DNA of 31,065 nt from a virus, in the IMG/VR virus record IMGVR_UViG_3300008262_004700, positions 1 through 31,065 of that record, one strand, 5' to 3'. Shown here piece after piece: positions 9,491-27,402 of the stretch (positions are counted from its first letter, which is position 1; every line of letters begins with the position of its first letter). The translations under genes and the position numbers were made by a program. The notes under the pieces were generated by a model that ran no database searches, had not been told where the DNA came from, and saw nothing but the letters and a program-made list of their open reading frames with translations.

Positions 9491-10033
9491 ATGGGTAGAC
9501 CAGGAAGAAAACCAGCGGCCGAGATGGAGGCCCTCAGAGAGAAGATTAAGGCCCTGTATCTCAACGGGGTCCCGTACGCCCAGATAGCCAAGGCTTGCGA
9601 TCTAAGCATCGATAGCATCTATCACCACATGTCCGTCATCAAGAAGGAGTGGGCCGCCGAGAAGCTTGACATCCCGGTCGTTCGCGGTGAGCTCATGGAC
9701 AAAATCCGCCAGATAAGCCGCGATGCTGCGGCCGGTGCTGCCCGCTCCCGTGGCGGCAGCGCTGAAGTTGCTTTCCTCAGACTCCAGATGGAGGCTGTGC
9801 AAACCGTCGCCAAGATGGTTGGCGCTTACGCCCCAGAGAAGACTGAGCTCACCGGCGAGGGTGGCGGTCCAGTCATGATCGCCCAAGAGCACAATATTGA
9901 CTCTCTCGACAGCGAGAAGATCGCTGCTCGGCTCACTGAGTGGGCTGAGAATCTCAGGAATGAGGATGACATCGAGAAGGAAAACCTAGAGTTTACGGAG
10001 AACAAAGTTGTCCTCACCGAACCCACAAAGTAG
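9491..10033 (+). CDS. terS: Terminase small subunit (putative)
   Basis: A 180-aa protein directly upstream of the large terminase and overlapping it by 26 bp. The start has a strong AGGAGG eight bases upstream. Residues ~12-50 form a helix-turn-helix of resolvase/terminase type (LYLNGVPYAQIAKACDLSID, then SIYHHMSVIKKEW). The middle is alanine-rich helical (AAAGAARSRGGSAEVAFLRLQ), consistent with oligomerisation, and the tail is acidic. Small subunits recognise packaging sites on phage DNA and feed the motor. The call comes from position and HTH; small terminases diverge strongly. Confidence 0.8.
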   Translation: MGRPGRKPAAEMEALREKIKALYLNGVPYAQIAKACDLSIDSIYHHMSVIKKEWAAEKLDIPVVRGELMDKIRQISRDAAAGAARSRGGSAEVAFLRLQMEAVQTVAKMVGAYAPEKTELTGEGGGPVMIAQEHNIDSLDSEKIAARLTEWAENLRNEDDIEKENLEFTENKVVLTEPTK

Positions 10034-11459
10034 TCCGCAGGCACAGTACCGAGAGTGGCTTCGTGTCCAGGCGGCCACAAGCGACGCAGCCTTCGCCGAG
10101 TACATGTCCGGCCTCGTCTTCCCAAGGCACCTTGTTGGCATGGAGAAGTTTCTAGATAAGAACGACACAGCCCTGGTGCTGATGCCCCGTGGTCACGCCA
10201 AGACAACAATGTTGATACACAGGGTTGCAAGACTTGTTGGCGAGACTCGCGGCAAGGTGCGGATTGGTGTACTTACGGCGGTACAGAGCGACGGTATTGC
10301 CCGATCCCGCGCAATTAAGACGCTTGTGGAGTCCCCCTACTTTGCAGAGGTGTTCCCGTGGGCGAAGGAGGGCGTCGTTGGGAGGAAATGGACGGACGCA
10401 GTCTGGATCGTCAAGGGTGTGGACCTTGGCAAGGACACGACTTGCTTCGCTGACGGCTTGACATCCGTAAAGCCTGGGCCGCGCCTTGACATCCTTCTCG
10501 CAGACGACATGGTTGGATTGCGAGAGAACTCGACCGCAGGCGCCAGAAAGAAGGCAGAGGAAATCTACTGGCAAGTTGTCGACCCGATGCTTGTCCCTGG
10601 GGCAAAGCGCTGGTACATCGGGACAAGGTGGCATGAAGACGATTTCTACGCAAGGCTACATGCTCGAGGCATACCTACGCTTCGGAGGGCCGCGATAGAG
10701 GACAATAAGCCACTATGGCCTGGATACTTCAGCCTTGCTGACCTCGAGAGGAAGCGGGAGGAGCTCGGAGGCCCGATCTTTTCACTCCAATTCCAGAATG
10801 ACGTGACCCAGATGGGTGGCAACATCTTCCGTCATGACTGGCTCCAGCACGTTGACAAGATTCCTCACGGTTCCCGCAGGATAGGTGTTGACCTTGCCGC
10901 TTCTGCCAGCGAGCGGTCTGACTACACGGCTGCGGTAGAGGTAGTCGAGGATACCTCGGGTAACCTCTATGTAGTTGGTGCCTACCGATCAAGAATCCAG
11001 GAAGGGCACCGGTATTGGCTTACTGGTATCGATAAGGACGGCGGGCTGCTCAACGATGAGACGAGCCCCCGCGTCTCGTGGCCAGCAAGATTGGTTGGCC
11101 TAAAGGGACAGGATATAGACCAAGTGGATGAGCCTCGATTCCTGGAAGCAGTGAACATCGAGTCGGTGCAGTACCAGGCAACCTTTATCCGAGAGCTTCT
11201 CGCTGAGACGAGGCTCCCGGCAAAGGCTGTCCGCCCAGACCGAGACAAGGTAATTCGTGCTCGGGCCCTTGCTGCAAGGTATGAGGCCGGGAAGGTCTTT
11301 CACTTGAAGGGCGGTCCCGGCATAGACGCCCTAGAGAGGGAGATGCTCACGTTCCCAAATAGCACCCACGACGACATGGTTGACGCCCTTGGCTACGCTG
11401 CTGATCTAACTGGATCAACCTTCTACTTCACGTCCGGAAGCAGAGGGCTTTCGCTATAG
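10008..11459 (+). CDS. terL: Terminase large subunit, ATPase and nuclease
   Basis: A 483-aa packaging motor. The ATPase domain shows a Walker A-like MPRGHAKTT at 59-67, Walker B LDILLADDM at 160-168 and a coupling segment WYIGTRWHEDDF near 202-213. The RNase H-like nuclease follows with GVDLAAS at 293-299 and the terminal acidic motif HDDMVDALGYA near 455. The start is TTG at 10008 (GGAG seven bases upstream), overlapping the small subunit; the first in-frame ATG would remove 32 residues. It converges with the next minus-strand gene, overlapping it by 6 bp. Length and motif order are normal for the family. Confidence 0.95.
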   Translation: MSSPNPQSSPQAQYREWLRVQAATSDAAFAEYMSGLVFPRHLVGMEKFLDKNDTALVLMPRGHAKTTMLIHRVARLVGETRGKVRIGVLTAVQSDGIARSRAIKTLVESPYFAEVFPWAKEGVVGRKWTDAVWIVKGVDLGKDTTCFADGLTSVKPGPRLDILLADDMVGLRENSTAGARKKAEEIYWQVVDPMLVPGAKRWYIGTRWHEDDFYARLHARGIPTLRRAAIEDNKPLWPGYFSLADLERKREELGGPIFSLQFQNDVTQMGGNIFRHDWLQHVDKIPHGSRRIGVDLAASASERSDYTAAVEVVEDTSGNLYVVGAYRSRIQEGHRYWLTGIDKDGGLLNDETSPRVSWPARLVGLKGQDIDQVDEPRFLEAVNIESVQYQATFIRELLAETRLPAKAVRPDRDKVIRARALAARYEAGKVFHLKGGPGIDALEREMLTFPNSTHDDMVDALGYAADLTGSTFYFTSGSRGLSL

Positions 11460-13048: not shown

Positions 13049-13273
13049 CTAATCCGAAATCGATGAGTTGTACTTGACTACAACCGCCCTGGAATCTATT
13101 TCTTCCTGAATGATGTCAATGGCGTCGGATACTCCACGGAGGTATGCCGCGCGAACAAGCACGTCGCTTTTGTTCGGCGCCGAGAACATGCCGCTAGCGA
13201 AGCCGCTTTGGAGCACTGCTCTAAGCCGCTCGATCGCCGAGACGGCCGCTTCTTTACCCTTGGCTTTCGACAT
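13049..13273 (-). CDS. Small hypothetical protein
   Basis: A 74-aa ORF starting MSKAKGKEAAVSAIERL; an ATG 48 bp further upstream exists but would run through the membrane gene in another frame. The body is helical (AIERLRAVLQSG, VRAAYLRGVSDAIDIIQEEI). No family is recognised. It overlaps the 3' end of the small membrane-protein gene by 20 bp and is the last gene of the modification-type operon. Confidence 0.55.
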   Translation of the reverse strand: MSKAKGKEAAVSAIERLRAVLQSGFASGMFSAPNKSDVLVRAAYLRGVSDAIDIIQEEIDSRAVVVKYNSSISD

Positions 13274-13403
13274 ACCGAATAGCCGCCTGGGACAGGGAGA
13301 ACAGAAGAAGTCCAGCGCCAATAAACTTATTTAGCTCGAAGACTCCGTAAAGCAAAAGGCCAGCGCCGATAAAGCCGGTAAGGTGTCCTACTGCCTTAAC
13401 CAT
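13254..13403 (-). CDS. Small two-helix membrane protein
   Basis: A 49-aa ORF with two short hydrophobic segments, GHLTGFIGAGLLLYGVF and NKFIGAGLLLFSLSQAAI, separated by ELN. The repeated FIGAGLLL suggests an internal duplication into a hairpin. Its ATG overlaps the stop of the IbrB-like gene as TAATG, the same coupling seen elsewhere in this operon, which supports it as real. A holin-like or membrane-anchor role is possible but unproven. Confidence 0.6.
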   Translation of the reverse strand: MVKAVGHLTGFIGAGLLLYGVFELNKFIGAGLLLFSLSQAAIRYVESQG

Positions 13404-13924
13404 TACTTATCCTCCTCTGGCGCCCACGCCTCGTTGAAGTCATCTCTGGCAAGGCGCTTAATGATGTCTCCTCGGTCAAGCAGCCGCTCGAACTCTTCGT
13501 TGTCCATTCCAAGGCGTCGCATAATCTCGGCCTTTGGAAGCTTCATGTCGTCGGCAAGCTCAGCGACAATGTCGGCCATTCGGACCACGCCGTGGCTACC
13601 GCGTGCGCGATTGTGTCGGATTGTCGCCATACGCTGCGTTGCGGCATCTACATCGATGAACACTACCGGAACGAGGAAGTCTGTCATTTCCCCAACTCGG
13701 GGGTCACCGGAGCATGTCCATCGGTGGAATCCGTCAACAATTTCCCCGCTTCGACGCGCCACAATCGGCTGTGTCCAGCCTGTCTCCATGATGCTGAGCT
13801 TTAGCAGCTCCAGCTCCGGTGGCGCTACGTGATTTGGGTTGTAGTCGTTTGCGCGAAGCGTATTGCGGTCGACCCACTCAACCTTCGCCAGCGGCTGCTT
13901 ATCTCGTCCTATTACCTTTTCCAT
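13403..13924 (-). CDS. IbrB-like ParB-domain protein
   Basis: A 173-aa protein with ParB-like boxes: DYNPN at 27-31, IVDGFHRW at 62-69 and IRHNRARG at 102-109. The central Gly-Phe-His-Arg replaces the usual GEHR. It lies one base downstream of a DUF3440 PP-loop gene. That pairing (DUF3440 plus ParB-like) is the one described for IbrA/IbrB, reported as co-activators of prophage gene expression in Escherichia coli. The C-terminal ~60 residues are helical and acidic. A partner role with the PP-loop enzyme is inferred from adjacency. Confidence 0.82.
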   Translation of the reverse strand: MEKVIGRDKQPLAKVEWVDRNTLRANDYNPNHVAPPELELLKLSIMETGWTQPIVARRSGEIVDGFHRWTCSGDPRVGEMTDFLVPVVFIDVDAATQRMATIRHNRARGSHGVVRMADIVAELADDMKLPKAEIMRRLGMDNEEFERLLDRGDIIKRLARDDFNEAWAPEEDK

Positions 13925-13925
13925 A

Positions 13926-15323
13926 CTATCCCCTCTTTACTCTCCAGGTTGAAAGCTCTCCGCTCTCAGCAAGCATACGATACTCGATCTTGTAGTTCTC
14001 TACCATCGCCTTTTCTCGCTCGGTAGTCTTCGGCGCTGGTGGCTCCTTTCGGTTCTTGAAATCGCCACGCATCGCCACGCTCATAAGGAAGCCCCAACTT
14101 ATGCCGGTGAGTGGGTGTGGGGCATTTGGCAGGATTGGATCGTTGGTCTTGGCGTGGTGCCACCCGATCCACCTTCGAATCCGCTTCGCAATAACCTTCT
14201 GATCTTCCGGCCGGAACTTTTTAATGTAGTGCACCATATATTGCTCCCAGCTCAAGTCAATAGGCTTTGGCGGGATTCCGACGCCCCAGAGTTCGGTGTG
14301 TGCATACATTGCGCCAGTATTCGCACCCGGAACACGGTGCGCCATGCGGTCCCAGACCTCTGGTGCTACCTTCGAGAACATCCAAAGAGAGATCATTGGC
14401 TCCTCGCCGTAAGGGGGGCCAACTCGAACCTTGTTAACGGGGATCTTCGCCATGACCATATGCCGGTACAGCTGGTTGTAGTCCCAGTCAAACTTCCTAA
14501 CTGCGGTCCAGATGTCGTTATTCGTCCAGTCATAAACCGGGTATCCCTTGAAGATCCTTGGCGTGTACTTTTGCGATTTAAGCTTAACTCCGTGCTTGTC
14601 AATTCCGTCGGTAACAATGTAATTTGCCTTAGACCCGGGGCGCTTTGACACAAGCCTCATTCTTCGGATGCTCTCCTGCGCGCGCAGTCCGATAAGCATG
14701 ATCGTCTTCTTTCCAGTCCCAGCAGGGTCGGCCATGATGTCGTTGATGTCCGGGTACATCACACGAAGCTCTGGGTCGGCGTGAGCCCTCTCCATCCATT
14801 CTTTTAGTACTGGCTGTTCGTCAATCCTTGCGTTTGCCTCTGGTGGCATTGGTCGCACCCACTTATCCTGCTCTTCTCGTGCCCACGGGAACCACCACGG
14901 GTTCTCCCTCGAGCATGCGTTTCGGTGCCGAATCGGCAAGCAGTACCAATCAAGCTGAACGCCTGGAAGCTGGGAAACTCTTCGAACGTACTCCTCTGTC
15001 TGGTACGGGATAGCCTCCTCGTCGATAAAGATGACGCGCAGCGGAAGCCTGTTTAGCTCTTTTGCAACCTCATAGGCGACCATCATGGTCGCAGTGCTAT
15101 CTTTTCCGCCGCTGAAGGATACGACTACCTCTTCGAAGTTCGCGAAGATAAACCTCATCCTGTCTAGGGCTGCCTCCCAAACATTCTTTCCAATCCCAAC
15201 ACGACGACGGACGCTGTTAGGCGCGTACTCACGCTGGTCCTTAGTTCCGTGCTTGGCCGAGGCCGCACTCTCCCAGAACGTGTCTGGGTTAATGTCGAAG
15301 TGGCTCTTCTGCTCTTCTGTCAT
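13926..15323 (-). CDS. IbrA-like DUF3440 / PAPS-reductase-family PP-loop protein
   Basis: A 465-aa protein. NVWEAALDRMRFIFANFEEV leads into VVVSFSGGKDSTATM, with the PP-loop SGGKDST at 71-77. These enzymes bind ATP in a HUP fold and either adenylate a substrate or reduce PAPS. Later segments typical of the IbrA/DUF3440 group are EEAIPYQTEEYVRRV, GLRAQESIRRMR, YPVYDWTNNDIW and LYRHMVMAKIPV. The start overlaps the upstream PP-loop gene as ATGA. The substrate is unknown; no ordinary sulfate-assimilation gene is nearby, so a biosynthetic or modification role is preferred. Confidence 0.88.
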   Translation of the reverse strand: MTEEQKSHFDINPDTFWESAASAKHGTKDQREYAPNSVRRRVGIGKNVWEAALDRMRFIFANFEEVVVSFSGGKDSTATMMVAYEVAKELNRLPLRVIFIDEEAIPYQTEEYVRRVSQLPGVQLDWYCLPIRHRNACSRENPWWFPWAREEQDKWVRPMPPEANARIDEQPVLKEWMERAHADPELRVMYPDINDIMADPAGTGKKTIMLIGLRAQESIRRMRLVSKRPGSKANYIVTDGIDKHGVKLKSQKYTPRIFKGYPVYDWTNNDIWTAVRKFDWDYNQLYRHMVMAKIPVNKVRVGPPYGEEPMISLWMFSKVAPEVWDRMAHRVPGANTGAMYAHTELWGVGIPPKPIDLSWEQYMVHYIKKFRPEDQKVIAKRIRRWIGWHHAKTNDPILPNAPHPLTGISWGFLMSVAMRGDFKNRKEPPAPKTTEREKAMVENYKIEYRMLAESGELSTWRVKRG

Positions 15324-16168
15324 GCGCTCATAATCTCATCAAATTCCGGAATGCTCTTAGGGGCAACCCGTTCAATCCAATCCCTAAATTCTACAATGGT
15401 TGGGAAGAGAGTTATATCAGACCTTCCAACCAGGTCAGCCAGGTCAACCCAATTGCTATTTGAGCCGATAATGAATCCGTACTGGCCTTTATAGGTAGGG
15501 GCAAGATTGAGATCAAAGTACTTGATGGCGGCAAGTATCTCCTCGTGCCACCAGTCATAAATTGGGGCAAGGCTCACCGTTCCCCTGCCGCGTGGGGCCT
15601 GCACGCCGCCCAGGTTCTTGTCGTGCTTTCCGCAGTGGTTCTGGTCGTCCATTCGCCTCCCCGTGATGTGCAGCGCCGACCTGTTCTTATAGCACCATTC
15701 CCTCTGGGCTGGCGCGTGAAAGTTTGCAAGTTTTGCCGGAGGGTTCTGCCCCCAAACGCTGTTTTTATTCTTAATGACCCAGGAGTTATCCGGCCCTATC
15801 TCAATTATCTCGATTTTTTCTGGCTTATGGTTGGCGACGTACTCGTGCATCTCCGCAACCTTAGCGCAACGGTATAGCGCGGCAACACCGGCGTCGTAGC
15901 CGACGATCCGAAGGACTCGCTCTGCGACAAGAGCGTCTTTGCCACCGCTCCATCCGACTGTTACCTTCCCTGGATACTTCTGCTTAGCCAGCTCAATTCT
16001 TCGGGTTGCTTCGTCGATCCTGTCTTCGAGCCACGACGTAGGGACGTACTTCTCGATTTCGTCATATGCTCGCCAGATTGTTACGTCGTCCCACTTCTTC
16101 CCGCGGCGTGTATTCGTAGCAATTGTGCCATTGTTGGTGATATCAAGCCCCGGGTACCTGCGCCTCAT
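15320..16168 (-). CDS. PP-loop / PAPS reductase-like enzyme
   Basis: A 282-aa protein with KVTVGWSGGKDALVAERVL; the PP-loop SGGKDA is at 74-79. RCAKVAEMHEYV and an acidic strand follow, as in PAPS-reductase/ATP-sulfurylase-like HUP enzymes. Cys and His residues around REWCYKNRS and NHCGKHD could bind metal or act in sulfur transfer. It is clearly different in length and sequence from the neighbouring IbrA-like protein, so the operon encodes two distinct PP-loop enzymes. Both junctions overlap as ATGA. Confidence 0.82.
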   Translation of the reverse strand: MRRRYPGLDITNNGTIATNTRRGKKWDDVTIWRAYDEIEKYVPTSWLEDRIDEATRRIELAKQKYPGKVTVGWSGGKDALVAERVLRIVGYDAGVAALYRCAKVAEMHEYVANHKPEKIEIIEIGPDNSWVIKNKNSVWGQNPPAKLANFHAPAQREWCYKNRSALHITGRRMDDQNHCGKHDKNLGGVQAPRGRGTVSLAPIYDWWHEEILAAIKYFDLNLAPTYKGQYGFIIGSNSNWVDLADLVGRSDITLFPTIVEFRDWIERVAPKSIPEFDEIMSA

Positions 16169-17514
16169 CGTGCGTACCTCTCGTGTACTGCCTTGACGTG
16201 CTGGTACTCTCGGATTGCGTCGGCCCCCATGTCGGCACCGTTTCCGCTCAATCCTCTTCCTGGATGCGGTATCTCTGGGGTTTGGGCAAGGTGGCAGTTG
16301 ACCCAGACCTCACCTACATCCATCGCCTGCTCGCATACCTTGATGTTTGTCAGATCGGAACCCCATACCGAACCAGAAAGCCCGGGGCCAAACATATTCG
16401 CCATCTCAACAGCCTGTCGAAGATCGGATGCAAGCTGAACTGTCAAGACCGGTCCGAATACTTCGCAGGAAACAACGTCATCCATTGGTGATGGGTTAAT
16501 CACAAGGGCTGGCTTTACCCAATATCCCCAATCTTCCTTACCTGCTTCTTGGGTCGTGGTACCTCGGACTACGTCACCACTGGTCTCGGAGATGAACGCT
16601 TCAATCTTCTCCGCCTGCTCGATGCTGATTGACGGCATGTTTGTTGGCACTGACGAAAATTCCTCGGTGAGCTCCCTGGCCGCCCTTTCGAAGGCGGCTT
16701 TGCCAACAGCGATAACACGTGCTGGCGCTGCGCAGGATTGACCGTTGTTGTAGAGCGCGGCTGCGGCGATGTCTTTTGCCGCTCGCCCTGGCGCGTCCTC
16801 AAAGAAAATTACAGGGCCGTTTCCACCTAGCTCTAGAGATGTCTTTGCTGGAAATGCCTCCCTTGAGATCTCCCTGCCAACTGAGGTTGACCCGGTGAAG
16901 GCGATGCAGTCAAAGTTTGCTGATGTCATTGCCTTGCCAGTATCCTCCCCGCCAAGTACTGTGCACACAACGCCGGATGGAAGGTTCTCCAGGCAGATGT
17001 CTTGCAGGAGTACGGCCGAGTATGGGGTTTGCTCTGCTGGCTTTACTACTGCTGTTGACCCGGAGGCAAGAATCGCGCCAATTCTCCAGGCCCAGATCAC
17101 TGTTGGGTAATTCCAAGGGAGAATGACGCCGACAACTCCAACTGGCTCTCTTGTCACATACGAGAATGTATTTTCCATATAGCCGCCTGGGATTGTGGAC
17201 GTTTGCGTTCGTGCTGCGCCAGCAAAAAAACGGATAGTGTCGATTGCGTGATTTATTTCACTAAGGGCCTGCGACCTTGGCTTTCCGGTGTTCATCGACT
17301 CGAACATGCAGAGCTCATCGATCTTTCGCTCCATGCCGTCAGCTAGCTGGAACATGAACTTCGATCGCTCAGCGTGGGTCAAATTAGCCCAGCTCGGAAG
17401 GGCCGTCCGCGCAGAAGAAAGCGCCTCCATTACCGTCTTTGCGGTGGCAGACTCAAACTTGGCCCTTGACTCCCCGGTCCTGGGGTCAAACGTTAGAATA
17501 TCGAGGCTATCCAT
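16165..17514 (-). CDS. NAD(P)-dependent aldehyde dehydrogenase
   Basis: A 449-aa protein starting MDSLDILTF at 17514, chosen because GGAGG lies six bases upstream and the ATG overlaps the preceding stop. Catalytic features are intact: GVVGVILPWNYP with the oxyanion Asn135, VVKPAEQTP, FTGSTSVG, general base Glu228 in LELGG, and nucleophile Cys261 in NNGQSCAAPAR. The cofactor-end motif EVFGPVL and a terminal SGNGADMG complete it. It is about 40 residues shorter than many ALDHs. ALDHs oxidise aldehydes to carboxylates. This is rarely seen in phages; next to an amidoligase it could supply the acid to be amidated. Confidence 0.92.
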   Translation of the reverse strand: MDSLDILTFDPRTGESRAKFESATAKTVMEALSSARTALPSWANLTHAERSKFMFQLADGMERKIDELCMFESMNTGKPRSQALSEINHAIDTIRFFAGAARTQTSTIPGGYMENTFSYVTREPVGVVGVILPWNYPTVIWAWRIGAILASGSTAVVKPAEQTPYSAVLLQDICLENLPSGVVCTVLGGEDTGKAMTSANFDCIAFTGSTSVGREISREAFPAKTSLELGGNGPVIFFEDAPGRAAKDIAAAALYNNGQSCAAPARVIAVGKAAFERAARELTEEFSSVPTNMPSISIEQAEKIEAFISETSGDVVRGTTTQEAGKEDWGYWVKPALVINPSPMDDVVSCEVFGPVLTVQLASDLRQAVEMANMFGPGLSGSVWGSDLTNIKVCEQAMDVGEVWVNCHLAQTPEIPHPGRGLSGNGADMGADAIREYQHVKAVHERYAR

Positions 17515-18286
17515 TGAGTTCCTCCGGGTCGACGACCTCGCCAACTCCAAGGGATTCGTACATCTTTCGCACGTCAAGATCGTCGTCTATTGCCATGTCT
17601 AGGATGTAGTTGTCCTCGAGAAGCTTGTTGACCCTCCAGCGCTTTGACTCCACATATGCACCGGCAGGAAGGTCGCTCATAAACAGCTCGTCATATTTAA
17701 GGCCAGCCTTCTTTAGGCTTTCCACAGTGCGCTCCCTGGACTCTTCGGCCCTTGCCGTCAGAACAATAACTGACCTACCCTTCCGATTTTCCTGGACCCA
17801 GTCTAGTGTTGACTGAATGGTATTTCCCTCGCTATCGATGAGTGTCTCGTCGATGTCGACAATGATCGCCCTCTTCGAAAGCTTGCCAGGCATTCCTCGC
17901 TTGAGAATCATTCGGAACCAGGTACCTTCGTCTCTCTGGGCGACAATACCTGCATTGACAAATCCAAACTTTTCGTATATATCAGCAGCCCTAGTTATTG
18001 TCTTGACGTCTCGATCCCCGACAAGCTTCAGCCGGTGCTCGACAAGCATCTTCCCGTATCCCTTGCCGCGATAATCCGGCATTGTCCAAAGAGAGCCCAG
18101 CGTGCACGCGCCGCGTGGCGGGATGTCAAGTCGCCCAAATGAGACCAGGTTCTCGTCTACGTACAGGCCCCACCACGTCGTTGACGGCTCTGCTGCCCTT
18201 TCAAATCCGTAGGTCATGTAGTTCGGACCGTAGTTGCGCAGGGCAAATGGGATTCTCCAGTTAATCTCCTTAATCTCTATCGCCAT
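17507..18286 (-). CDS. GNAT acetyltransferase-HAD phosphatase fusion
   Basis: A 259-aa two-domain protein. Residues 1-~130 form a GNAT acyltransferase with SLWTMPDYRGKGYGKMLVEH, where RGKGYG at 73-78 is the acyl-CoA pyrophosphate loop, then AADIYEKFGFV. Residues ~138-259 form a HAD hydrolase: DIDET at 144-148, LTAR at 176-179, a Lys near 215 and the acidic DDD at 234-236. All four HAD motifs are present. The ATG at 18286 follows GGGAGG and overlaps the amidoligase stop; the longer in-frame extension upstream lacks any domain character. The fusion suggests consecutive acylation and dephosphorylation in one pathway. Confidence 0.9.
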   Translation of the reverse strand: MAIEIKEINWRIPFALRNYGPNYMTYGFERAAEPSTTWWGLYVDENLVSFGRLDIPPRGACTLGSLWTMPDYRGKGYGKMLVEHRLKLVGDRDVKTITRAADIYEKFGFVNAGIVAQRDEGTWFRMILKRGMPGKLSKRAIIVDIDETLIDSEGNTIQSTLDWVQENRKGRSVIVLTARAEESRERTVESLKKAGLKYDELFMSDLPAGAYVESKRWRVNKLLEDNYILDMAIDDDLDVRKMYESLGVGEVVDPEELNG

Positions 18287-19167
18287 TTTGCCTCCCTTCC
18301 CCTGAGCGCTACTGCGTGATCTCCCGTTGCATTCAAAAGATAATCTTCTCGATATGCCCTCTCCAGCTTGGCGTCGATGTATAGCTGGTCTGGAAGGTCG
18401 TAGTACTGATCGCTCATAAACTCTAGCGGATGACGCTGCTCGCCAAGTGCCTCTTGGACAAACGCGGCACACCAGTCTATGGCGTCTCGAATCTGATCGG
18501 TGTTTGTCGTGGATGAGAACTGACGGAATTCGATGGTTCCATTCTTCTCGATGCTCGATAGATTGATAAACGATCGGTCCGTTTCATCAAATTCATCCTG
18601 GACAGGTCGGATGATGTCGAAGAACTCGTCGGTTGTCGAGGCTGATAGCGCCCGGCTAACCGTCTCCGGGGAGTAGACGTGGCCACGATACGGAACCGTA
18701 TACTTCCGGAAATACTCCAGGGCAAACTTATAGTCGTCCATTGACTCGTAGTGCTGGGGCTTCGGCTCTGCTAGCTTGAATGTCGACCAGAGGAGCTCGA
18801 CCTGGTACTTGGACACGTAGCTAATTAGCAACTTCATTGCCCCAAGGTCTTCCTTTACCCCGTCGTACCCGATGTGCACGTGCATAGCGGTCTTAAAGTT
18901 TACGGTTGGAGGGCACCCGGCATCGGTAAACAGCTTGATTAGCGAACTCGCAATCTCTACCTGGCGATCGCTGCTGTCACTTGGAACGGTATTAATTTCC
19001 CCGCCTTTACCGCCCCTGTCGCCGAGCTGATCGTTCGATGTTCCGTCGCTATTCACGATCGTATCTTCAAACAGGTTCCACGAGGCAAGGTCACTCGGCA
19101 GCTCTATCGAGCGCGTTGTGTCAGCCCATTCAAGCTCGAGTCCGTATGTGAGCCCTGCCACAGGCAT
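18277..19167 (-). CDS. Putative amidoligase (glutamine-synthetase-like fold)
   Basis: A 296-aa protein with the signature pieces of the amidoligase_2 family: YGLELEW at 8-14 (metal/ATP-binding acidic pair), GGEINTVP at 55-62, MHVHIG at 95-100 and FINLSSIEKNGTIEFRQFSS at 200-219. These enzymes use ATP to join a carboxylate to an amine, making amides or peptide-like conjugates. The ATG overlaps the cupin stop as TAATG. Family members are known from phages, where they have been linked by comparative genomics to peptide or small-molecule tagging. The substrate here is unknown. Confidence 0.85.
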   Translation of the reverse strand: MPVAGLTYGLELEWADTTRSIELPSDLASWNLFEDTIVNSDGTSNDQLGDRGGKGGEINTVPSDSSDRQVEIASSLIKLFTDAGCPPTVNFKTAMHVHIGYDGVKEDLGAMKLLISYVSKYQVELLWSTFKLAEPKPQHYESMDDYKFALEYFRKYTVPYRGHVYSPETVSRALSASTTDEFFDIIRPVQDEFDETDRSFINLSSIEKNGTIEFRQFSSTTNTDQIRDAIDWCAAFVQEALGEQRHPLEFMSDQYYDLPDQLYIDAKLERAYREDYLLNATGDHAVALRGREAKWR

Positions 19168-19613
19168 TATTCGTCCTGCTTCTTCGCCTCGCTGTCATCG
19201 AATATCGGGGCCTCTACGGCATTTCCCTGCCAGTCAGTTGGCTTCATTCGATCAGGGGCGTCCACTGGCTTGTGCGGGCTGCCGATTGCAAGCAAGACGT
19301 GGCCTGCAGCACCTGCACCTACTGCGTGAGGAATCATGCCAGGGATCATATACATATCACCAGGTCGAACGTCAATCTTCTGGCCGTCAAACGAGATGGT
19401 TCCTTCGCCCTCAAGGCACATCAGGAGATGATCGCCCGGATGCGTGTGGATTGGGAAGGAGGCGTTAGACGGAACCCAGAGGATGTCTGCGCCGAGCTTC
19501 CCGTTTGTGGCAATATTCTGCCCGCGTGCGTCTGCGCCAACCACTGGGATGGCGGTATCGGGCTTAGCCAGCGCCAACTCCGCAACGTTGATAATCTTAA
19601 GTAGCTCAGCCAT
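19167..19613 (-). CDS. Cupin-domain protein
   Basis: A 148-aa single-domain cupin. Motif 1 is FPIHTHPGDHLLMCLEGEG with metal ligands His56, His58 and His62 or Glu68. Motif 2 is PGDMYMIPGMIPHAVGAG with His96. Cupins of this size can be isomerases, epimerases, dioxygenases or simple metal-binding sensors. The chosen start (MAELLKIINV) follows AGGAAA and overlaps the ParB-like stop by 8 nt. Placement between ParB and amidoligase genes suggests it works on an intermediate of the same pathway. Confidence 0.88.
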   Translation of the reverse strand: MAELLKIINVAELALAKPDTAIPVVGADARGQNIATNGKLGADILWVPSNASFPIHTHPGDHLLMCLEGEGTISFDGQKIDVRPGDMYMIPGMIPHAVGAGAAGHVLLAIGSPHKPVDAPDRMKPTDWQGNAVEAPIFDDSEAKKQDE

Positions 19614-20298
19614 TTTCCTCGCTCCAATCTTCCACAATCTTTGACAATGCCTCTCCTGGGTATTCCACTCGGAATTTGTCCCTGGCACTATCGATTCCTC
19701 TCATAAGCCTAATCATTTCCGTAACATTAAGCTTTTTAATTGCAACCGGCCTGCCACCGGCGGATTCGTAAGAAAGCCTGACCAGCCTCTCCCCGTCAAG
19801 CTCCGCCCCTTGGACCTGATCCGGTCCGTCGCCAAGAGACGAGATGAAATCATCCAGGAATGAACCAACCTCGTCTGCGAGGATCAGGCTCTCCCTGAGG
19901 ATGGCGTCTACGTCGGAGCTCATGAATCCCGTACCTTCGAGATCATTACCGGTCCGCATGTCGACAAGCAGCCTTGCCAGCGCCTTCGGGTCATACTCCG
20001 CCAGGTCGCTGGTGCGGTTATCCGCAATCAGGTATCCCTGCGCCTCTTTCTCCGACAGGTCGGTGAAGTGGCACGCAATCGTCTCCCACCCGAGGCTCTT
20101 CGCCGCATGCCAGGTGTGATTACCGGCGATGACAAACTTTGTGCCTTTCTGTGCGACGATAGGCTTTTGCTGCCCAAACTTCTTCAGGCTCTCGGCAATC
20201 TTCTCCACGTCGCCGCGCCGCGCGTTTTTTGGGTGCGGGGCTACGTCGAAAAGAGGGATGGCGAGATGGGAAATCCCCTGCGCAATATTTGATTCCAT
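19606..20298 (-). CDS. ParB-like domain protein, first gene of the modification-type operon
   Basis: A 230-aa protein. The ParB-like domain has PHPKNARRGD at 21-30, FVIAGNHTWHAAKSLG around 55-70 and YLIADNRTSDLAEYD near 89-103. The C-terminal ~100 residues (SFLDDFISSLGDG, VAIKKLNVTEMIRLMRG) are of a type I do not recognise. TAACAT six bases before the ATG and no Shine-Dalgarno make this the likely leaderless first gene of a long minus-strand transcript. It resembles the ParB-like protein at 8909 more than the IbrB-like one. Confidence 0.85.
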   Translation of the reverse strand: MESNIAQGISHLAIPLFDVAPHPKNARRGDVEKIAESLKKFGQQKPIVAQKGTKFVIAGNHTWHAAKSLGWETIACHFTDLSEKEAQGYLIADNRTSDLAEYDPKALARLLVDMRTGNDLEGTGFMSSDVDAILRESLILADEVGSFLDDFISSLGDGPDQVQGAELDGERLVRLSYESAGGRPVAIKKLNVTEMIRLMRGIDSARDKFRVEYPGEALSKIVEDWSEENG

Positions 20299-20936: not shown

Positions 20937-21242
20937 ATGCCTTCAACATACACCCAAGCTGAAATGGACAGATTCATGGCAATGGTTGAAAAAACAACCA
21001 CCTGCTGGTTCTGGACCGGTGCGACTGACCCGAATGGGTACGGCGCTTTTAAGTGGCGTGGCTGGAAGGTGAGCTCCCACAGGTGGCTCTACAAAAGAGA
21101 GGTTCGTGACATTCCACGCACCACTCAACTTGACCACCTGTGTCAGAACCGTAAATGCGTTAACCCCTCCCACCTTGAGGAGGTGACCGCCGCCGAAAAT
21201 AATCGACGGAAGTCTGAACGCATTAAATCTTATCGGTATTAA
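20937..21242 (+). CDS. HNH endonuclease
   Basis: A 101-aa HNH nuclease: WFWTGATDPNGYGAF at 24-38, then LDHLCQNRKCVNPSHLEEVT at 65-84, followed by ENNRR. The Asp-His pair, Asn-Pro and second His are the ββα-metal core, and the CxxxxC pair is structural. The WTG-GYG lead is common in small phage HNH enzymes, both homing-type and packaging-associated. It is far from the terminase, so a free-standing homing endonuclease is more likely. The start is set by the TACAAT element. Confidence 0.9.
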   Translation: MPSTYTQAEMDRFMAMVEKTTTCWFWTGATDPNGYGAFKWRGWKVSSHRWLYKREVRDIPRTTQLDHLCQNRKCVNPSHLEEVTAAENNRRKSERIKSYRY

Positions 21243-21597
21243 CATTTTCTTTCATAGGGTGGCCCCACTCGCCACGCAGGAGCGCAACAGCAATCAGCGA
21301 GTAGTTGGCGATGTCAAGCAGGGTATCTTCCATTGACTCGCCCTGCCCGTCTGGGAGCTTGTCAAGGATCACCACGCCGTTCTCGATTTTCCCGTTGAGG
21401 AACTTCTTTGCACGGGCGGTCTTGTCGTGAGCAATCCTGCTGATCACCCCATGAAGACCTAGCTGCTCAATGTTTGAGTCACCGTACCGGCGCTGCTTAT
21501 CTACCAGAAGGCTAAATGCCTCCTTGTAAATTTCCTCAAACGCTTCTTCGAACGTCCTAGGACTTGCGATTGATGCTTGCCGCTTGGGAGAAGCCAT
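21223..21597 (-). CDS. DUF1599 / Nmad1-like protein (all-alpha NTP pyrophosphatase relative)
   Basis: A 124-aa helical protein with KQRRYGDSNIEQLG, ISRIAHDKTARAKKFL and EDTLLDIANYSLIAVALL. The order K-RYG, R-x-K and D-x-ANY-I matches the DUF1599/Nmad1 pattern, a group related to all-alpha NTP pyrophosphatases and linked to nucleotide modification in phages. It overlaps the MazG gene by 41 nt, and its convergent neighbour is the HNH gene. The family assignment is from memory of the pattern. Confidence 0.72.
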   Translation of the reverse strand: MASPKRQASIASPRTFEEAFEEIYKEAFSLLVDKQRRYGDSNIEQLGLHGVISRIAHDKTARAKKFLNGKIENGVVILDKLPDGQGESMEDTLLDIANYSLIAVALLRGEWGHPMKENVNTDKI

Positions 21598-22012
21598 CTG
21601 GATACCTCGCCTTCAGTTTTTCGACATTCTTTTGAGCGATCTTGTCCATGTCAAGGCCAAGCGCATTACAGAGCTCAGCGACGTACCAAAGCACATCTCC
21701 GAGTTCCTTTTCAACGTTGTCCGTGTCTAGCGGGTGGCCGTGGCCGACCCACTTTTTGAGGTAGTCAACAAGTTCACCGGATTCACCAGTGAGGCCCATT
21801 GCAGCAATTGCAACCCTTGCCCGACCCTCGTCCATCTCACGCCAGGCTCCGGAAGTTCTCCCGGCATTGTCCTGGTAGGCGGAAAACGTTGTATAGGTGG
21901 TGATTGGCCCGTAGCTCAAATCTCGCCCCACTGGCGAGCTCGAGCCGTGAGGGATTGCAGCGCCAGCCGCAATCGCGTTGCAGGTACAAAACTCATTTGT
22001 GCACTCAGACAT
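21557..22012 (-). CDS. MazG-like nucleotide pyrophosphohydrolase
   Basis: A 151-aa protein. The MazG fold signature is GESGELVDYLKK at 76-87 and VEKELGDVLWYVAELCNALG at 100-119, giving the E-xx-E and E-xx-D metal-binding pairs. These enzymes hydrolyse (d)NTPs to the monophosphate and pyrophosphate. In phages they can remove unwanted dNTPs or lower alarmones. The ATG at 22012 (MSECTNEFCTC) follows AGGAGAAC and overlaps the previous stop. The first ~35 residues are an unusual Cys-containing extension. Confidence 0.9.
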   Translation of the reverse strand: MSECTNEFCTCNAIAAGAAIPHGSSSPVGRDLSYGPITTYTTFSAYQDNAGRTSGAWREMDEGRARVAIAAMGLTGESGELVDYLKKWVGHGHPLDTDNVEKELGDVLWYVAELCNALGLDMDKIAQKNVEKLKARYPDGFSQAASINRKS

Positions 22013-22571
22013 TCCTGTTCTCCTTTTCTGTCTCTGCCATTGTTTTCGCTCCATACCCAAGTGGGATCGGAGACACTGATCGTAGCGGGCAATCGGTAAT
22101 CATGCAAGCACCACCTGGTCCGACGCACATCGTGCACATCGCCTGTACGCAATCCGCGTAAACGGACATCTTGGCACCCGCCTCCCTCGCAGCCTCTGCA
22201 ATGTGCTTGTAGCGCTCGTCCATGGCCCTGTGACGCTTGTCAAGCGTGATGGTTTTGATTAGTCGCCTTGTATTAAGGGCTTCGACCTCGACCTGAATGT
22301 GCTGAGGGATTTCAGGATCAGACTTGCCGAGGCGATCAGCCTTAACTTTTTCAAGGGCATCGAGGACAACCTTGCTCGGCTTCCTCATGCCATATACATA
22401 CGCCCTTGCGGTGGATAGGGAGATCTTTACGCCGTGCTTTGAAAGGTCTTCCACCAGGCTGTCGGCCCACTCAACACGAACTGGGTTCTTGCCGTAGAAC
22501 TGCGCGAGTAGGCGCAGCATCTGGCCCTCGCCGAACGTAGTCTGGGGTCGTACCTGCTTACTCCCCGGCAA
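22005..22571 (-). CDS. Hypothetical protein with C-terminal cysteine cluster
   Basis: A 188-aa ORF from a TTG at 22571; an ATG at 22520 with GAGG upstream is an alternative start. The N-terminus has an HTH-like stretch (VEDLSKHGVKISLSTARAYV, GMRKPSKVVLDALEKV). The C-terminus has C-x4-C-x2-C-x6-C-x4-CPL (QAMCTMCVGPGGACMITDCP), a likely metal site. Such Cys-rich tails ending in CPL occur in small phage proteins. The function is unknown. Confidence 0.65.
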   Translation of the reverse strand: MPGSKQVRPQTTFGEGQMLRLLAQFYGKNPVRVEWADSLVEDLSKHGVKISLSTARAYVYGMRKPSKVVLDALEKVKADRLGKSDPEIPQHIQVEVEALNTRRLIKTITLDKRHRAMDERYKHIAEAAREAGAKMSVYADCVQAMCTMCVGPGGACMITDCPLRSVSPIPLGYGAKTMAETEKENRNV

Positions 22572-23973: not shown

Positions 23974-24049
23974 TGGTAGGGGAGCCTGGACTCGAACCAG
24001 GAACCGCCGAGATATAAGCTCGGTGCTCTAACCTTTGAGCTACTCCCCC
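23974..24049 (-). tRNA. tRNA-Ile(UAU)
   Basis: A complete cloverleaf on the minus strand. The acceptor arms are GGGGGAG and CTCCCCT (one G:U), and the D stem is GCTC/GAGC. The anticodon stem CCGAG/CTCGG encloses loop CTTATAT, so anticodon TAT (UAU), which reads AUA. The variable loop is five bases, the T-arm CCTGG-TTCGAGT-CCAGG, and the encoded end is ACCA. Bacteria usually read AUA with a lysidine-modified CAU tRNA, so a UAU tRNA is unusual. Its first 10 bases are the 3' end of the upstream CDS, including its TAG stop. Confidence 0.93.
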
Positions 24050-24933: not shown

Positions 24934-25629
24934 TCATGTGAGGTCTTCGCGTCGACCTTGAAAGTAGCCCTCCTTGCGTGAATACCCAAAGAAGTTTTTG
25001 GTTGTAATGGTCTCCTGCTCTTCATTCATCAGGTCAAGGTACTCGTCGACAATAGGCGCCATCTTCTCGAACACCTCTCGTCGAAGGATCATCGCCCCGG
25101 TTCCGACCCGATCGCAAACGACAAAGCCGAGCTCTGAAATTGCTGGGTCGATTTCCTTCGGCTCAGTCCCATGGAACTCAAATGCCGGTCGAGCCAGGAT
25201 CGAAGCAATGCTCTTCGGCTCAATACCGGGAGTGCCTTGGATGATGGAGAGCGCTCGTGCTGGGTCGAACGCCCTTCTGGAGTATGGAAGCGCCGTGAAC
25301 TCCAGCCCAGACAGCACGCAAACCATCACGTCTTGCGCGTTGACCCCAACGTCTGAGTCCAGGAACATGAAGTGCGTAGCGTCGCCCTTCAGAAACTCCA
25401 CAACCGACCGGTTCCGTGCAACAGGAAGGATCGAGATCCCGGGGACAACGCCCCAGGAGAACTTACCGCCGACCCGCTGGGCCTCAACTTGCATCTTTAG
25501 GATTGAGTTGACGTACCCGACGTTAAACGTGCCGGTCAAGGACGGCGTCCACACGGCGAGCTTAAACCTTGCCGCCTGCGGCTTTGGCTGTGGGTTTGAC
25601 TGCTGCTTGAATCGTTTCTTCTTTGACAT
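24934..25629 (-). CDS. GT-A-type glycosyltransferase-like protein, 3' end probably disrupted
   Basis: A 231-aa protein. After a Lys/Gln/Pro-rich head, PSLTGTFNVGYVNSILKM and FMFLDSDVGVNAQDV (DSD at 91-93) mark a GT-A nucleotide-sugar fold, and GTGAMILRREVFEKM follows. Such phage proteins usually continue past the G-x-GYFxGED region. Here the frame ends abruptly as QGRREDLT. In the next frame the DNA encodes DAKTSHEGSIQYGYDF and more, ending at 24855, which resembles the expected family tail. An internal deletion with frameshift (or an assembly error) is likely. The native protein may be inactive or truncated. Confidence 0.68.
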   Translation of the reverse strand: MSKKKRFKQQSNPQPKPQAARFKLAVWTPSLTGTFNVGYVNSILKMQVEAQRVGGKFSWGVVPGISILPVARNRSVVEFLKGDATHFMFLDSDVGVNAQDVMVCVLSGLEFTALPYSRRAFDPARALSIIQGTPGIEPKSIASILARPAFEFHGTEPKEIDPAISELGFVVCDRVGTGAMILRREVFEKMAPIVDEYLDLMNEEQETITTKNFFGYSRKEGYFQGRREDLT

Positions 25630-26766: not shown

Positions 26767-27402
26767 TCAAATGTCTACCAAGATATGGGTGTAGCCTTCC
26801 TGCTTTGTTACAGACTGCAGGGTATAGCTCATCGTCGTCAGGCCGTTTCTTAGGACCGCCTCTTTGGAGCCAAGTGCCTTGAAGTGGATATCGATGTTCT
26901 CCTTCGGCGGGTTATTGCCGTATGGGCGTTCGTGGTCCAGGCTAAGGAACCGCTGGTCATTTCGCCTGAAGACATCGATACCGGCAAGGTGTACTCGGTC
27001 GAGCAGCGCATCGTCCTCCAGACCCCACCCGTAGTAGTTTGCTGGGAACCCATTGCACTCTGCGAAGGAGCCCCGGTCGAACATCGTCACCCCGCCGAAG
27101 TATTGGAGGTAGGGCATCTTGTACTCGAACTGGCTTGCAGCCGTTGCGAGATGCGTGGCGCCGTTTTGCGGGGAGTAATCGACGTCCTCAGGAATCATGT
27201 CGACATCGTGAAATATGATATGTGAGTGTGAGGAAAAGATGAATCCGATGTTGCAGAGCGCTCCTCGGTTGAACGCCTTGTCGTTCCCCTGTTCGACTAT
27301 GAGGAGCTCCACGCCTGGAATTGCCTTGATGATCGCCGGAACGAACTGCTCAAGGTGGGCAGCCCGATCGCGGTACGGAACGACTACGGAAATATCATTC
27401 AT
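26767..27402 (-). CDS. Galactosyltransferase-like (GT7-type) glycosyltransferase
   Basis: A 211-aa GT-A enzyme. Key positions: MNDISVVVPYRDRAAHLEQF at the start, FHDVDM at 65-70 (DVD metal site), YFGGVTMFDRGSFAECNGF at 101-119 and GWGLEDDALLDR at 125-136. This is the beta-1,4-galactosyltransferase (GT7) pattern of GGV, NGF, and GWG-EDD. It may add a sugar to phage DNA, a virion protein or a host surface; the substrate is unknown. Its ATG overlaps the upstream stop as ATGA. Confidence 0.85.
   Translation of the reverse strand: MNDISVVVPYRDRAAHLEQFVPAIIKAIPGVELLIVEQGNDKAFNRGALCNIGFIFSSHSHIIFHDVDMIPEDVDYSPQNGATHLATAASQFEYKMPYLQYFGGVTMFDRGSFAECNGFPANYYGWGLEDDALLDRVHLAGIDVFRRNDQRFLSLDHERPYGNNPPKENIDIHFKALGSKEAVLRNGLTTMSYTLQSVTKQEGYTHILVDI

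Follow-up and report, generated by a model that had tools for sequence, protein, structure and literature searches.

A phage operon with an amidoligase contains a recurrent PP-loop/ParB gene core and may form an amide-containing nucleotide or DNA modification

Phage genes annotated as 'PAPS reductase' or 'ParB' are usually filed under sulfur metabolism or partition (e.g. PMC11318856, PMC10434257). The IMG/VR virus record IMGVR_UViG_3300008262_004700, a partial lake-phage record of 31,065 bases with tail tape measure and terminase genes (hereafter the window, meaning this whole stretch), raises the question of what such genes do when they share an operon with tailoring enzymes. Between 20298 and 13254, on the minus strand to which all operon coordinates below refer, the window encodes in this order a ParB-fold protein (ParB1), a cupin, an amidoligase, a GNAT acyltransferase fused to a haloacid dehalogenase (HAD) phosphatase, an aldehyde dehydrogenase (ALDH), two PP-loop ATPases (PP1 and PP2), a further ParB-fold protein (ParB2) and a membrane open reading frame (ORF) of 49 residues.

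The original prediction, made from the DNA alone, had described these genes as one co-directional set with joined reading frames, and this description proved accurate. Profile matches recovered every named gene, neighbouring genes overlap or touch (spacing of about -10 to +1 bases), and the IMG/VR assemblies 3300008448_014076 and 3300002835_000958 repeat the gene order of the window exactly. Because these two assemblies share the gene order, a chimeric assembly could be ruled out. In comparison with 3300002835_000958, the synonymous substitution rate (dS) of the eight larger operon genes was 0.47-0.71 and the ratio of nonsynonymous to synonymous rates (dN/dS) was 0.000-0.033. The eight genes are therefore under strong purifying selection and form one selected unit, as had been supposed. 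The catalytic motifs are readable: GQSC in the ALDH, DIDET and DDD in the HAD domain, and SGGKD in both PP-loop proteins. Judged by their sequences, these eight genes are functional and retained. A leaderless promoter had been predicted for the operon; a promoter scan revealed no sigma-70-like site beyond chance upstream of ParB1. In addition, megablast against phages gave no match, and single-protein viral scans with GNAT-HAD, PP1 and PP2 returned the same two close contigs only.

Four of the proteins belong to the PP-loop and ParB families. PP1 (15320..16168) is a short, PAPS-reductase-like ATPase with a conserved SGGKD loop and a weak Pfam match (0.025), whose family profile matches the structures of PAPS reductase (4e-4), TtuA (1e-3) and GMP synthase (5e-3). 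PP2 (13926..15323) is an IbrA-like ATPase with matches to PAPS_reduct (PF01507, 2e-13), DUF3440 (PF11922, 1.5e-10) and phrog_2302 (3.8e-77), and it is followed after a 1-base gap by the IbrB-like ParB/sulfiredoxin-fold protein ParB2 (13403..13924; phrog_2159, 2.6e-61), which shows no amino-acid change relative to the window relative L003 (loci are given by our own numbers). ParB1 (19606..20298), of the same fold, heads the operon (phrog_723, 5.5e-42; dN/dS 0.006); the Pfam ParB_N scores of ParB1 and ParB2 (1.8e-5 and 4.7e-5, respectively) fall just below the curated cut-off. PP2 and ParB2 agree with the IbrA/IbrB pair in families, order and adjacency, and PP2 is 28.5% identical to the annotated IbrA of Escherichia phage PhiR5_2. 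An IbrA/IbrB-like pair inside the operon had been predicted, as had a gene set larger than the described pair, and both predictions were borne out: the window adds PP1, a second ParB, the cupin, the amidoligase, GNAT-HAD and the ALDH.

PP1 has relatives at 41 loci of Clostridia genomes and in at least 188 IMG/VR viral stretches, 80 of which were kept; co-occurrence was counted over the 41 Clostridia loci and 83 viral loci. PP1, PP2 and ParB2 occurred together in all 41 Clostridia loci and in 77/83 viral loci, i.e., in 118 of the 124 loci other than the window. The six exceptions are all viral; three are contig ends (L174, L180, L208), and three have PP1 with a glutamine amidotransferase (GATase) only (L173, L185, L210). 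A second ParB gene was present in 41/41 Clostridia and 75/83 viral loci, and a terminase gene lay less than 3 kb from ParB2 in 32/41 and 54/83 loci, respectively. Among 50,697 phage records PP1 was found in one, an uncultured faecal record, and a search against plasmids gave no match.

These loci fall into two classes with different companions. A transporter accompanies the core in 40/41 Clostridia and 65/83 viral loci and a cupin in 9/83 viral loci, and the two never occur together. In the symporter class, the order is a sodium:solute symporter (SSF) or another permease, PP1, ParB, PP2 and ParB2, often followed by the small and large terminase subunit genes (TerS and TerL). In the Clostridia prophages and viral contigs L040-L080 and L173-L249, the gene directly before PP1 encodes the symporter (PF00474) or a permease of a second type, with terminase genes nearby; it is unusual for a phage to carry a transporter gene at a fixed position. 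Cultured Clostridia with prophages of this class include Acetatifactor muris DSM 23669 (L053), Blautia sp. An249 (L054), Flavonifractor sp. An100 (L078) and Roseburia sp. 1XD42-69 (L047). In the cupin class, the order is ParB, cupin, PP1, class II GATase, PP2 and ParB2 (L174, L199, L200, L204, L211 and L234, with L198 and L244 less regular); the GATase-like ORF of L198 and L234 was called on the opposite strand. In the variant locus L183 a PIG-L deacetylase stands between PP1 and PP2. Altogether, a class II GATase (Pfam GATase_6) adjoins PP1 in 14 loci, which suggests that PP1 uses glutamine-derived ammonia.

The window probably belongs with the cupin class. Its PP2 groups with that class in the PP2 tree (100/100 support), and the operon holds every gene of the cupin-class module, i.e., ParB, cupin, PP1, PP2 and ParB2, except the class II GATase. 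The closest relatives of the window PP2, ParB2 and cupin were found in L244, L183 and L181: ParB2 is 58% identical to the L244 copy, and the cupin (19167..19613; Cupin_2, 6.3e-13; no amino-acid changes relative to L003) is 40-49% identical to the cupins adjoining PP2-ParB2 in these three loci. Isolated phages also combine a cupin with IbrA-IbrB; Mycobacterium phage Gaia has it fused to ParB, and Pseudoalteromonas phage XCL1123 encodes it as a separate gene. A PF12224 search of the cupin-class records had a silent control, so its outcome was not taken as evidence of absence. In Microbacterium phage Leaf (L167, 139-5194), a PP2 relative annotated as adenylyltransferase is the last gene of an operon that also encodes two glycosyltransferases, an acetyltransferase and a methyltransferase.

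In the literature searched, outside which most subscription journals fall, we came across no account of the six-gene module. One report lists two PAPS reductases without explanation in prophage 14 of C. clostridioforme, as ORFs 40 and 42 with one ORF between them (PMC11318856). The IbrA/IbrB pair and phage hypermodification are already known; the core of PP1, PP2, two ParB proteins and cupin is apparently an undescribed gene system, recurrent in well over 100 uncultured phages and Clostridia prophages.

The remaining enzymes of the operon have a much narrower distribution. A co-occurrence search had been proposed for these enzymes and the two PP-loop genes: the PP-loop/ParB/cupin part does recur, whereas the amidoligase, GNAT-HAD and ALDH accompany it in the lineage of the window only. 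Among the 80 TerL relatives kept for comparison, these tailoring genes were found only in the two close contigs already identified; another close contig, L088, ends too early to show whether it has them. At the corresponding position, the next sister phages (L089-L092) retain ParB1, PP2 and ParB2, their ParB being 51% identical to the window ParB1, together with other enzymes. In L092 (11873-18995), the sister examined in detail, MazG-like and 2-oxoglutarate-Fe(II) oxygenase genes surround ParB1-PP2-ParB2, and reading of the sequence gave a candidate methyltransferase-like ORF and a candidate S-adenosylmethionine (SAM)-synthetase-like ORF. For GNAT-HAD and ALDH, no relatives were detected in other PP-loop/ParB systems. 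GNAT-HAD (17507..18286; dN/dS 0.030) is a single ORF with an N-terminal acyltransferase (Acetyltransf_1, 1.3e-11, residues 6-109) and a C-terminal HAD phosphatase (Acid_phosphat_B, 4.1e-8, residues 165-236; polynucleotide kinase-type phrog_415, 2.1e-15, residues 137-251). The ALDH (16165..17514; Aldedh, 2.7e-108; dN/dS 0.027) has its catalytic cysteine in GQSC and is nearest by profile to aminobutyraldehyde/aminoaldehyde subfamilies; its best NCBIfam match, the aminobutyraldehyde dehydrogenase PRK13473, is below the cut-off of that family. In phages, tblastn with the ALDH matched mostly phage-named records bearing bacterial metabolic genes, from which no context was drawn.

The amidoligase (18277..19167) is the tailoring enzyme with informative relatives. 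It is a glutamine synthetase (GS)-like carboxylate-amine ligase (Amidoligase_2, 9.3e-8; 32.7 bits against a cut-off of 22) that retains the residues invariant across the family. Its structure model had a predicted local distance difference test score (pLDDT) of 85.7, and the top PDB matches in Foldseek were glutamine synthetase, glutamate-cysteine ligase, YbdK, PafA and Dop, with modest template modelling scores (0.3-0.44). By family score, ligase residues and the GS-like fold of the model, the protein is an Amidoligase_2/GS-like ligase. All 20 other loci with an amidoligase relative (L010, L021-L039) are thymine-hypermodification clusters, a count that may be biased by scan patterns drawn from an alignment holding one hypermodification member; tblastn with the window amidoligase alone likewise matched only a hypermodification member. 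A gene of the 5-hydroxymethyldeoxyuridine (5-hmdU) kinase type is present in 20/20 of these loci, ADDT in 19/20, and a thymidylate-synthase-like or TET gene in all but L028, a 4.3-kb fragment that stops short of ADDT. Most of the 20 loci also have an LMWPc phosphatase-fold gene close to the amidoligase; in L021-L039 the amidoligase, usually adjoining LMWPc, is likely the amide-forming tailoring step of DNA hypermodification. In the hypermodification clusters L022, L031 and L033, which have a TET/JBP oxygenase, a ParB gene immediately precedes TET or ADDT. The context of the amidoligase family is the strongest link of the operon to DNA chemistry.

Two further observations bear on function. The variable enzymes around the core (GATase, PIG-L de-N-acetylase, amidoligase and GNAT) mostly act on amines or amides, and ParB-superfamily proteins partner DNA-modifying enzymes in known systems, DndB with the PP-loop protein DndC and DpdB in Dpd (PMC10853773, PMC12839542). 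Therefore, we propose, with confidence a little short of even, that the operon encodes a PP-loop/ParB system whose product is a nucleotide or DNA modification containing an amide, and that ALDH/amidoligase/GNAT-HAD tailoring extends this system in the window lineage. We infer the reactions, their order, the product and the target as follows. PP-loop ATPases adenylate a group, which a nucleophile then attacks; PP1 and PP2 may use ATP to activate carbonyl, carboxyl or phosphate groups, and nitrogen or an amine would be introduced, elsewhere from glutamine via the class II GATase adjoining PP1. The ParB-fold ATPases may power the loading of the modified nucleotide or nucleobase, or control it. 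The cupin would reshape the side chain, the ALDH would oxidise an amino-aldehyde to the carboxylate, and the amidoligase would join this carboxylate to an amine with ATP, while GNAT would acylate an amine and HAD remove a phosphate. The substrate would be supplied by the symporter in one class and by local synthesis in the cupin/GATase class. The most likely end point would be phage DNA or its nucleotide precursors. The wider claim, that these loci represent a new and widespread phage system for modifying DNA or nucleotides, based on two PP-loop and two ParB-fold ATPases with imported or locally made substrate, to which the window variant adds an amide side chain, is possible but doubtful. We know of no report of this chemistry, in which ALDH, amidoligase and GNAT-HAD would build the side chain, on DNA. 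Thymidine hypermodifications, according to Lee and colleagues, are reportedly built from amino acids on 5-hmdU and then reshaped by enzymes including acetyltransferases.

The original prediction had named a hypermodified base among the possible products. This guess fits the other amidoligase relatives, all of which were found in DNA-hypermodification clusters; a phosphatase-fold neighbour is a further shared feature (LMWPc there, HAD in the window). The genes that would install 5-hydroxymethyluracil (5hmU) do not bear it out. ADDT, 5hmU kinase, thymidylate synthase, TET and FAD oxidoreductase are all missing from the 31 kb of the partial window, ADDT, 5-hmdU kinase, thymidylate synthase and TET gave no match in its relatives L003 and L009, and ADDT and thymidylate synthase were found in 0/16 long TerL relatives (37-91 kb), where the ADDT control was silent in reference genomes. 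A classical 5hmU hypermodification cluster was rejected on these findings. The absence of these genes weighs against our proposal, as do the possible bias of the amidoligase count, the 18 amidoligase records in which no PAPS_reduct match was found, the annotation of IbrAB as a co-activator of prophage genes, and a PP2 structure model too poor to interpret (pLDDT 46.7). In addition, the very long branch of the window amidoligase means that this protein may have taken on a different role.

Comparison with other known systems gave partial likenesses. Dnd phosphorothioation also combines a PP-loop enzyme (DndC) with a ParB-superfamily protein (DndB), and the DndC profile weakly matches PP2; however, PP2 reached 27.5 bits against a DndC cut-off of 290.4, and DndA, DndD and DndE were not seen among the window proteins scanned. 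In LUZ24-like phages such as UFV-P2, a phage amidoligase likewise occurs alongside amide-bond enzymes, GATase and ATP-grasp (PMC3890496), but the window operon has no ATP-grasp gene and no PP-loop pair is described for UFV-P2; tblastn with the window amidoligase did not detect LUZ24-type amidoligases. An auxiliary metabolic gene for sulfur assimilation was rejected, as neither PP1 nor PP2 contains the ECG string of the ECGLH motif of assimilatory PAPS reductase (CysH). The QueC/7-deazaguanine pathway was rejected as well, with no PF06508 match and no QueC structure matched by the PP1 profile search, and so was known anti-phage defence, for which PADLOC 2.0 gave weak partial matches only (MTase_II for the ParB part, DndC, BrxP).

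Instead of modifying DNA, the operon could make a soluble small molecule derived from an amino acid or nucleotide, e.g., an N-acyl or ectoine-like amide, with which the phage would change its host or overcome a defence. The best matches of the ALDH to aminobutyraldehyde dehydrogenases would suit such a product, as would the ectoine-synthase-type cupin of the Gaia cupin-IbrB fusion (the usual substrate of ectoine synthase is an acetylated diamino acid), the symporter of the Clostridia class as a metabolite importer, and the SAM-synthetase-like, methyltransferase-like and 2-oxoglutarate oxygenase genes at the same place in sister phages. Since the kin of the amidoligase sit in DNA-modification clusters, two ParB-fold proteins and terminase adjacency are unusual for plain metabolite synthesis and the operon has no exporter, we regard this explanation as rather unlikely. 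It is quite unlikely that the main role of PP2-ParB2 is IbrA/IbrB-type regulation of prophage or host gene expression, with the other genes as accessories: the pair matches annotated IbrA/IbrB pairs by family, but regulation alone leaves the conserved second PP-loop enzyme, GATase, PIG-L deacetylase, transporter, cupin and second ParB unexplained. The regulatory and modification readings may overlap.

Two other explanations were considered. The amidoligase, GNAT-HAD, ALDH and cupin could be independent cargo that shares a single transcription unit in a variable region next to the terminase, as might be expected from their restriction to the lineage of the window among the 80 TerL relatives, the other enzymes at the same place in sister phages, and the lack of GNAT-HAD or ALDH relatives in other systems. 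The overlapping genes, their identical order in three assemblies, a dN/dS of at most 0.033 for each and a cupin common to related systems make this very unlikely. Modification of a host or virion protein or peptide, with amidoligase and GNAT as peptide-modifying enzymes and PP1 as a Cap9-like conjugating enzyme, is about as improbable. The protein ligase PafA and Dop are indeed among the best structural matches of the amidoligase, and QueC-fold PP-loop enzymes have been reported in protein modification (PMC13329287), but no ubiquitin-like or peptide-tag gene was seen in the operon, and the structures matched by the PP1 profile do not include QueC.

The operon ends with the one-helix membrane ORF (13254..13403; phrog_502 membrane protein, 3.8e-5). 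Elsewhere in the window, the terminase genes (9491-11459) are on the plus strand and the tail and operon genes on the minus strand. An ORF with a weak DUF1599 match (nucleotide modification associated domain 1, E 0.025) at 21223-21597 is kept in 46/80 TerL relatives and overlaps a MazG pyrophosphohydrolase gene (21557-22060). A tRNA-Ile gene with anticodon TAT lies at 23974-24049; a family-7 glycosyltransferase-like gene (26767-27402; PF02709, 3.8e-21) and a second protein (24934-25629) are conserved among TerL relatives.

To summarize, the 'PAPS reductase' and 'ParB' genes of these loci belong to a conserved multi-gene enzyme system of defined order. If the system does modify DNA or nucleotides, it would add a further chemistry to the conflict between phages and their hosts, and the unexplained IbrA/IbrB pair would gain a testable biochemical role. 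Culturable lysogens with the module exist, which makes direct testing possible.

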